Positions 19,090 through 20,792 of a stretch of 25,484 bases of DNA are shown in pieces. The notes beneath the pieces are model-generated. The model did not search any database. It had not been told where the DNA came from and saw only the letters and a program-made list of their open reading frames with translations. The position numbers were made by a program, and so were the translations under genes. The stretch comes from a virus, in IMG/VR virus record IMGVR_UViG_3300042879_002246, positions 1 through 25,484 of that record; one strand, 5' to 3'. Each line of letters opens with the position of its first letter. The first letter of the stretch is position 1.

Positions 19090-19491
19090 ATGTTAAATTT
19101 AGATTGGAAAGCAGAAGAAAACCCTAACACGGGTAAAATTCAACTTGTAGCAAGAGTTACAGGTAAGTTGGAAAGCATTGGTTCTAAACTATTAGAGTCC
19201 AAAATTGAAGGTAATAAGCCTTACTACCTGAACACAATTACTGTTGTGGATAAGGAAGGTACTGTTGCAGAAGACGTAACAGCAATGTTTTACCCAACAG
19301 AGTTGAATAAACTTGAAGATTGTAAGATTGGAAAATCTTACTTGACCAAGGTTATTTGGACTGCGGGTGCTGAAAACTTGTTGTATTGCAACACTGCTCT
19401 TATTGCAGGTAACCGTACTAAAGCAGGTAGTGATGCAGAGTTTGAAGCTTTGTATGCTAAGCTTACAGCAGGTATTAATGCCGAGTTGTAG
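19090..19491 (+). CDS. Early protein with tandem promoters, unknown function
   Basis: This 133-residue protein is beta-rich in the middle (PYYLNTITVVDKEGTVAEDV, about 44-63; SYLTKVIWTAGAENLLYCNT) and ends with a short helix (EFEALYAKLTAGINAEL). Its codon use looks less AT-biased than that of the neighbours, and it has two promoter copies and its own terminator, so it is probably highly expressed early. An OB-fold or nucleic-acid-binding role is possible, but no family is recognised. Confidence 0.75.
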   Translation: MLNLDWKAEENPNTGKIQLVARVTGKLESIGSKLLESKIEGNKPYYLNTITVVDKEGTVAEDVTAMFYPTELNKLEDCKIGKSYLTKVIWTAGAENLLYCNTALIAGNRTKAGSDAEFEALYAKLTAGINAEL

Positions 19492-19502
19492 TAGGTAGAC
19501 TT

Positions 19503-19530
19503 AAACCCTTGTAGAAATACAAGGGTTTTT
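19503..19530 (+). terminator. Intrinsic terminator
   Basis: AAACCCTTG/CAAGGGTTT stem with a T5 run. It separates the 133-residue gene from the structured 1-kb region. Confidence 0.88.
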
Positions 19531-19539
19531 GTTATTTAT

Positions 19540-20565
19540 GCTACTTTTTTATTACTTATTGCTATGTGATTAATTAGCTATTGAAGATATAGTAGTTAGT
19601 ATAGCTTCATTAAGATATAACATTACGGTCTTAACAGTCTAATAGTAATGTAAATCTCTACAATAATTATCATAACAAACCTTCTATGGCTTCATTAAGA
19701 ATAATTATGTAGTATGTTTTACTGCTAAGGTAGCAGAAGAATACATTATACTTAGTTGTCTCCCACCGGTGGAGCAATGGCATTTTTTGTAGCAATAGCA
19801 AGGCTACTGTGTAATGCATAGGAGTGAGAAAATGGGTAAGTATTAACCCTCTATCATATCTTAACCATTATAATAACAAGTAAAATCTATTACAACACCT
19901 AATAAATATAAGGATATATGGCTATAAACTACAGTCTTAGTTAAACCCTTAGTATATTACTATCTATATTACTACTATATATAGGAACACAATAAAAGCT
20001 TCCGGGATTACAGTAATTTCCGGTCATAATATATACTCTCATCCAAGCAGGTAAACACAATCAGTTATGCTGAACGTGTGGATACTATACCAAGATAGTA
20101 GCATATGAAGCATAGTAATATGTAGAGGCTATCAAATTCAAGGGTTGCAACCTTGTGAGAGTACCAAATTTTTATACCTTGTATACAAAGGTATAAATCA
20201 TTAGAATAACCAACTAATGAACAAAAGTCTCAAGCTTGGTAAGCTAAATAGTATATTAGAGATACATCACGCAATAAACCCTTGTGGTGAACACTATAAC
20301 AAGCAGTCTGAGCAAAGCCTTGTAATCCTATTAATATACTAATAGGTATTAATGCACCATAACTCACTTCCCAAGGGTGAGCAGTTGTAGTATGGGTGTG
20401 CCCTACTAACAAAAACAAGGACTACAACTGAGTGCAGAGGGATTATTAATACATCATTCTAACTTAGGTTAGACAGTTGTAATGATAACATTGACAGGTA
20501 AAGAGTCCAGCTGGCTACTCCTGGTGTGTTACTGTTACAACTGTGGTGTATTAATTTAATTAGTA
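19540..20565 (+). ncRNA. Candidate giant structured RNA (GOLLD/ROOL-like or new class)
   Basis: There is no protein gene for about 1 kb, yet the region is dense with perfect helices: AGCTAT/ATAGCT (19576/19601), ACATTAC/GTAATGT (19620/19645), ATAATTAT pair (19663/19701), CTGCTA/TAGCAG (19722/19731), GCATT/AATGC enclosing GTAGC/GCTAC (19780-19817), TACTAT/ATAGTA (20083/20095), TTTATACCTT/AAGGTATAAA (20171/20188), CCTATTA/TAATAGG (20327/20340), CTCAC/GTGAG (20363/20377), CAGTTGTAGT/ACTACAACTG (20382/20421). The 3' end is a closed multi-branch domain: ATTAATACA/TGTATTAAT (20445/20547) encloses TCTAAC/GTTAGA and ACAGTTGTAA/TTACAACTGT (20473/20535). Strand is assumed to match the genes on both sides. 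No promoter motif is seen directly upstream and there is no T-run at the end, so processing or read-through is likely. The RNA class is not assigned. Confidence 0.7.
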
Positions 20566-20582
20566 ATCTTTAAACTAATAAT

Positions 20583-20792
20583 ATGCTATTTGCAAAGTTT
20601 TTATTCATTATAAAACTACACACAGGTTTTATAATACCATCATCAGATGTTGATGGAAGAACTATATACTCTATACCTTCAGAAAGTATTGAGTATGCTT
20701 ACAAATCTGAGATTATCCAGTATCTTGAAACTGGAGTATTTAAATATGATGATACATTAGATGATCCGGTAATATTATCTGAAGTACAATAA
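20583..20792 (+). CDS. Small hypothetical protein after giant RNA
   Basis: This 69-residue protein is hydrophobic at the N-terminus (MLFAKFLFIIKLHTGFIIPS) and acidic at the C-terminus (KYDDTLDDPVILSEVQ). It begins 28 bases after the last helix of the structured region, so it may be translated from the same transcript. The family is unknown. Confidence 0.6.
   Translation: MLFAKFLFIIKLHTGFIIPSSDVDGRTIYSIPSESIEYAYKSEIIQYLETGVFKYDDTLDDPVILSEVQ

Follow-up and report, generated by a model that had tools for sequence, protein, structure and literature searches.

The region between positions 19540 and 20565 of the window, by which we mean the whole 25,484-base stretch of an IMG/VR virus record that was analysed here, is best explained as an island in a crAss-like phage's early-gene arm, made up of distinct RNA modules that each fold on their own and may act in trans, an explanation to which, taken in full, we give slightly less than an even chance. 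Its structural core is far firmer: modules A and B are almost certainly structured RNAs, each made of a constant frame and a hypervariable structured arm, present in hundreds of related phages, oriented in the sense of transcription and swapped as cassettes. The frame consists of a closing helix and a hairpin with an invariant loop. A first-pass annotation had proposed one giant structured RNA of about 1 kb, a member of a known giant RNA family or of a new one. A new structured non-coding RNA is indeed there, but it is neither giant nor single: the region is not one unit, because its parts turn up separately in other loci, where they are combined otherwise or have genes interposed.

A gene-free stretch and its modules

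In the window, the minus-strand genes (tail, lysis, exonuclease) stop near 16.8 kb, where small genes on the plus strand take over. Two genes, at 19090-19491 and 20583-20792, border a stretch (19491-20583) where neither the listing of open reading frames nor the comparison of homologues revealed a credible gene. The sole reading frame of at least 60 aa there starts with TTG and runs antisense (20230-20418), and indels and hypervariable segments abound in the homologues, which bears out the annotation's view that about 1 kb lacked a plausible protein. The only relatives found for the neighbouring protein (19090-19491) come from one near-identical contig, and no tRNA was found in the window. Elsewhere, the window carries a homing endonuclease gene (1924-2622; phrog_655, E 1e-36), and diverged direct repeats in the intergenic DNA upstream of the island (18956-18983/19031-19058, 17509-17556/17750-17798 and 18029-18099/18556-18623).

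The many helices noticed at first are not a trivial property of composition, as 19540-20500 folds at -218.9 kcal/mol (z -2.7), a value that none of 20 dinucleotide shuffles equalled. The excess is uneven, with z -2.5 for module A, -4.4 for B', -0.9 for B and +0.5 for motif D. A closed multi-branch 3' domain, placed at 20445-20555, proved genuine: it reaches z -4.4 alone and the covariance model of module B matches it at E 0.005. A three-level nested helix at 19780-19817 was not confirmed, lying as it does within the conserved segment 19756-19820, which at z +0.5 has no gain over shuffles. The first 215 nt or so (19540-19755) are practically without counterpart in other loci. The remainder is made of the following features:

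19756-19820, plus strand: motif D (GTCTCCACCG..GTGGAG..), conserved, without demonstrable structure; 84-88% to L005 and L127
19955-20029, plus strand: conserved tail of a small hydrophobic reading frame, apparently broken here, with a CCGG hairpin; matched by about 15 loci; read as coding by eye only, and no RNA module proper
20034-20163, plus strand: module A as a whole (closing helix P1, conserved 'UCCAAGCAGG', variable arm or arms, hairpin P2); matched by model R2 at 20033-20164 with 79.7 bits, the window copy being itself part of the model
20034-20041, plus strand: module A, 5' strand of P1, TACTCTCA; two-sided change in 6 of 8 pairs
20156-20163, plus strand: module A, 3' strand of P1, TGAGAGTA, covarying with the 5' strand
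20139-20155, plus strand: module A, hairpin P2, CAAGG-GTTGCAA-CCTTG, loop near-invariant; 578/580 cells paired, a nearly uninformative count because the retrieval motif fixes this hairpin
20050-20138, plus strand: module A, variable arms, two extended hairpins in the window's subfamily; structure and covariation in 9 distinct relatives
20170-20345, plus strand: module F, several hairpins; 75-81% to L131, L095, L021, L033, L117 and L049
20353-20441, plus strand: module B as a whole, a three-way junction with a variable third arm; matched by model R1 with 84.5 bits, E 2e-22, the window copy being itself part of the model
20363-20381, plus strand: module B, hairpin P2, CTCAC-TTCCCAAGG-GTGAG; 294/295 cells paired
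20382-20430, plus strand: module B, arm P3, CAGTTGTAGT...ACTACAACTG around a variable core; 469/472 cells paired
20446-20554, plus strand: module B', a diverged B-like three-way junction; matched by R1 at 20458-20543 with 21 bits, E 0.005

The P2 hairpin of A also exists in CAGGG/CCCTG and TA forms. Support for F is moderate, 195 of 202 cells being paired with just three covarying pairs in seven sequences. Module B', which has relatives in L111, L071, L142, L059 and others, is to all appearances a diverged copy of B. Motif D yielded no common structure when 27 looser copies were submitted to RNAalifold.

Compensatory changes in A and B

Module A, 51 to 202 nt long, is laid out as UACUCUCA-UCCAA(UU)GCAGG, a variable part, then CAAGG-GUUGCAA-CCUUG-UGAGAGUA. 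The two-sided changes in its P1 include UA to AU, AU to GC, CG to UA and UA to CG, so that TACTCTTG/CAAGAGTA, for instance, replaces TACTCTCA/TGAGAGTA; at two of its eight pairs, no such change is seen among the collected copies. Over 42 chosen copies of A, 98.7% of the cells are paired and two-sided change affects 8 of the 13 pairs; shuffles give 1.8 such pairs and slid partners 2 at most, and none of 500 shuffles is as good. Module B (P1 UGCAC/GUGCA; P2 with loop UUCCCAAGG; P3 CAGUUGUA/UACAACUG) has 98.5% of its cells paired and two-sided change in 11 of 20 pairs; 69 cells carry such changes versus 17.6 in shuffles (again 0/500 as good), the covariation score is 0.330 versus 0.143 when shuffled, and RNAalifold recovered the structure unprompted. 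The compensatory changes that the first-pass annotation had proposed to look for in homologues are present in both families, and they exceed the shuffled and slid controls, as is asked of structured RNA in general.

Because the A and B sets had earlier been filtered for pairing, the stems were recounted on anchors only, which is the fairer test since selection of the A3 and A4 alignments demanded some pairing. Unconstrained, A-P1 is paired in 917 of 928 cells (116 distinct copies); the counts given above for B-P2 and P3 were likewise obtained without constraint, in 59 distinct copies, and every pair of B-P2 shows two-sided change. Most copies of A were retrieved via a motif that fixes the P2 hairpin and AGAG, a part of the P1 3' strand, the 5' strand of A-P1 and the stems of B being left largely free.

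The arms are structured as well. In the arm family of the window's A, 99.4% of the cells are paired and nine pairs changed on both sides, while the minimum free energy fold of the window sequence alone coincides with the RNAalifold consensus of nine relatives; a second family of A arms is likewise structured, judging from covariation. Both modules tolerate G-U pairs and keep their hairpin loops invariant. One copy of A (L074:3274-3364) joins a P1 5' strand of the CTTG type to a 3' strand of the TGAG type, with two G-U pairs, and looks like the outcome of recombination within the module.

Rfam 15 had no match to the whole window at gathering cut-offs, and, with E allowed up to 10, chance-level matches only to 19400-20700, without GOLLD, ROOL, OLE or HEARO among them; the idea of a known giant family can be set aside. 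The covariance models of these four also found no match in 25 further loci. Weak Rfam matches (Dicty class I, and alpha_tmRNA in L026) were dismissed as lying under curated cut-offs, the latter, at L026:2187-2343, scoring 23.8 bits where the cut-off is 50 (E 8e-4). A and B are, as far as comparison of sequences can tell, new structured RNA families, missing from Rfam 15. In the literature searched, to which most subscription journals were closed, we found neither papers on such RNAs nor any conserved non-coding RNA of crAss-like phages.

Carriers, cultured relatives and orientation

Contig L005, found via the neighbouring gene, keeps two blocks of the window (20138-20164 and 20346-20392), with motif D 1.3 kb upstream of them and protein genes in between. 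From the shared block, the 22-mer AAGGGTTGCAACCTTGTGAGAG is present in at least 120 IMG/VR stretches and a degenerate second A pattern in 47; module B and further motifs surfaced from recurrent k-mers, the B pattern alone being found in at least 120 stretches. Contigs of 60-125 kb typically have a single A together with one or two copies of B. The crAss-type TerL (phrog_6681) is encoded by 18 of 20 A contigs and by 8 of 12 large B contigs, the closest named TerL being about 25% identical, and the carriers encode proteins of 1,921 to 4,028 aa, presumably the size expected of a crAss-type virion RNA polymerase. On these grounds the carriers appear to be mostly crAss-like phages. Other small module-like motifs recur in L061, L163, L111, L083 and others (CCACAAGGTTTCAGGCATAACC..GGGGTTGACTTGTGG; AATCTAGGATATGATACGTAGGCCTAGCTACATT; TTATTGGGAGCATGTGACCATGAAAGAGGCATGC; CCTGAGCATGTAGAC), as does a promoter-like motif, AAAAAGCTTTAGTATATTTACAA, at 28 loci in 22 contexts. 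In the gut crAss phage cr55_1 (NC_055869), a gap of 1.15 kb without genes (L188:25640-26792) opens right past the strand divergence, the position of these islands; hairpin-like repeats are present there, A and B absent.

Direct homology searches of INPHARED returned no match to the whole region or to a short module A, and the exact A motif was found in none of the GTDB genomes. The B model found nothing in 11 reference crAss-like phages, a set without a positive control. It was the covariance model alone that reached copies of A in cultured phages of Flavobacterium psychrophilum, Fpv20 and FPSV-D24 (46 bits, E 4e-7), where one base pair of P1 is gone, both sides together; in Fpv20, A occupies 88313-88400 of KU599886, on the minus strand. 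Extension by BLAST brought the number of records with A to 18, all unannotated for it where features are given; A is absent from the records of Fpv1, Fpv2, Fpv3 and FpV4. Fpv20 and Fpv1 are identical over 830 nt and 99.7% identical over 651 nt on the two sides of a 762-nt insert of Fpv20, which consists of two small genes and A.

The modules follow the direction of the genes around them: both neighbours lie on the module's strand for 90 of 96 copies of A and 45 of 52 of B, and a single copy of A has both opposed. In three large contigs (G003, G006, G009), the strand divergence coincides with the GC-skew minimum; the module is found 2.5-4 kb away from this point, on the arm of the replication genes and directed away from it. 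Co-orientation with neighbouring genes argues for a role as RNA.

That role might be exerted in cis, if the modules served as leaders or spacers in polycistronic early mRNA and regulated the following gene through its processing, stability or translation. We think this unlikely, but it is a serious rival, because A often stands some 30 nt before an ATG: about 30 of 178 instances have one 25-41 nt past the module, and in Fpv20, where A sits alone between two genes, it ends in a U-run about 30 nt ahead of the ATG. Co-orientation would fit it too. A leader of this kind would nevertheless be expected once per operon, whereas there is normally one A (sometimes two or three) per genome of about 115 kb, and what follows it is often other modules and no gene. 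Where a reading frame of at least 40 aa does start within 120 nt downstream (50 of the 178 instances), the genes are mostly unrelated, falling into 28 groups of which 20 are single genes, and no constant partner of the sort that marks a riboswitch or a gene-specific leader emerges. The arms, moreover, are swapped while the flanking sequence remains constant. The three other explanations, considered below, fare worse.

Exchange of whole modules

The 252 arms of A and B fall into 107 clusters, 53 of them among copies of A. One and the same arm, present in 19 copies, is preceded by 13 different 5' flanks; conversely, unrelated A modules occupy near-identical flanks in L079/L133 (97% and 93% over 148 nt per side), L063/L166 (96/96%) and L143/L156 (95/98%), as do unrelated B modules in L026/L069 (99/100%). 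Empty sites exist as well: the B of L035 is missing in L042 and L153 within a background of 93-95% over about 150 nt per side, and the A of L163 is missing in L061, with flanks of 150 nt and 34 nt; certain other pairs can be read less easily, the alignment being disturbed by adjacent modules or A-rich leaders. The whole module is the unit of exchange. The swaps by themselves could be the passive result of homologous recombination between short blocks of conserved sequence. No sharing between A arms and B arms was detected by BLAST. A motif of A arms, ACATACTACC...GGATGTATGT (L031, L043), is seemingly circularly permuted in B arms (L013, L102), as if one internal loop had been reused in two frames.

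Such precise presence and absence, together with the swaps and empty sites, the complementary module ends and a single copy close to the GC-skew minimum, could betray an element acting as DNA, either a mobile cassette akin to MITEs or integron attC sites, or a hairpin for origin or packaging. We hold this to be improbable. Complementary ends, precise gain or loss and a variable interior are indeed shared with attC cassettes and MITEs, but the modules are usually single-copy (A seldom exceeds one per genome, unlike a MITE), transcript-sense (90 copies of A co-oriented with both neighbours versus 1 opposed), and marked by RNA-type covariation, with G-U pairs tolerated and hairpin loops invariant. 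To our knowledge, no recombinase is associated with them, unlike with attC cassettes or MITEs; neither a reverse transcriptase (retron, DGR or group II intron) nor TnpB was found in any of 13 carrier genomes, controls being positive. Nor can A be an essential origin, because B exists without A and close cultured relatives lack A.

Not one giant RNA

Conservation of the order A-F-B-B' in several phages is what one would expect of a single ornate RNA of about 1 kb with shuffling domains, a very unlikely and by now largely refuted reading. Modules occur alone or otherwise combined: of 55 further B loci only 7 have A, the A of Fpv20 stands by itself between two genes, and in L033 a gene starts 33 nt downstream of A, with F about 220 nt beyond. 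Each module folds locally, and the 5' third of the region is unconserved. GOLLD and ROOL resemble the modules in being structured RNAs of phages or prophages, with function unassigned on both sides, and differ in being one long RNA, where the modules measure about 50-200 nt, are traded as cassettes, have no covariance match and occur in a window without tRNA. Membership in the GOLLD, ROOL, OLE and HEARO group rests on a homo-oligomeric RNA complex or cage (PMC12286853). It also presupposes a single long contiguous RNA, and the modules are not one.

Hatchet ribozymes and RAGATH candidates (RF02678, RF03098) are nearer in kind, as small structured RNAs of the same phage class in or near islands, but A and B match neither model and no cleavage motif was recognised in them. 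Hatchet ribozymes above the Rfam cut-off lie at most about 1 kb from an A/B island at L012:46-208 and L067:8591-8727, and may process island transcripts; the early arm of cr55_1 has one at L188:29283-29382, with a RAGATH-22 RNA at L188:32071-32271.

The omega RNA of TnpB and RAGATH-18-derived guide RNAs (PMC11061315) likewise combine a constant RNA frame and a segment that varies. That the modules, which share this design, are guides of a programmable nuclease (omega RNA of TnpB or IscB type, reRNA of RAGATH-18 type) is nevertheless hardly credible, even with the RAGATH-22 RNA and hatchet ribozyme of cr55_1 in mind, as the TnpB domain is found in 0 of 13 carriers with positive controls, the arms are structured and shared within families rather than free guides, and complementarity to the own phage is without excess.

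A possible role in trans

Returning to the island of separate modules, we may ask what such RNAs would do. The modules would be transcribed together with the first genes expressed after entry, fold in the transcript or be processed from it, and then work in trans as non-coding RNAs whose specificity resides in the arm; we put this sequence of events forward tentatively, as somewhat less probable than its opposite. The frame would provide stability and a common binding surface, and the exchangeable arm specificity for a fast-changing host target, for example a component of a defence or some other host factor, while new arms would spread whenever recombination takes place at the conserved ends of the frame. 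It is the layout of the genes and the diversity of the arms that suggest an early position and a possible arms race. Arms show no excess of complementarity to the neighbourhood of their own phage, so that antisense action on nearby phage genes can be discounted.

Fpv20, which has A, and its close relative Fpv1, which has not, make up a natural test pair that allows direct testing of the module, with the two genes of the insert riding along. The two RNA families, outside Rfam 15 and each found by exact motif in at least 120 contigs, belong mostly to crAss-like phages, which are among the most abundant viruses in habitats rich in Bacteroidota. Turnover of the arms as cassettes within a constant frame would be an unusual course of RNA evolution. 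It is conceivable, and this we advance with still more reserve, that we see here an RNA counterpart of protein-domain shuffling, where a few conserved junction frames with exchangeable, fast-diversifying arms, passed between phages as cassettes and among the first products expressed, would neutralise or redirect host factors as the repertoire of an arms race. The module families would in that case form a plausible RNA-based repertoire of counter-defence.
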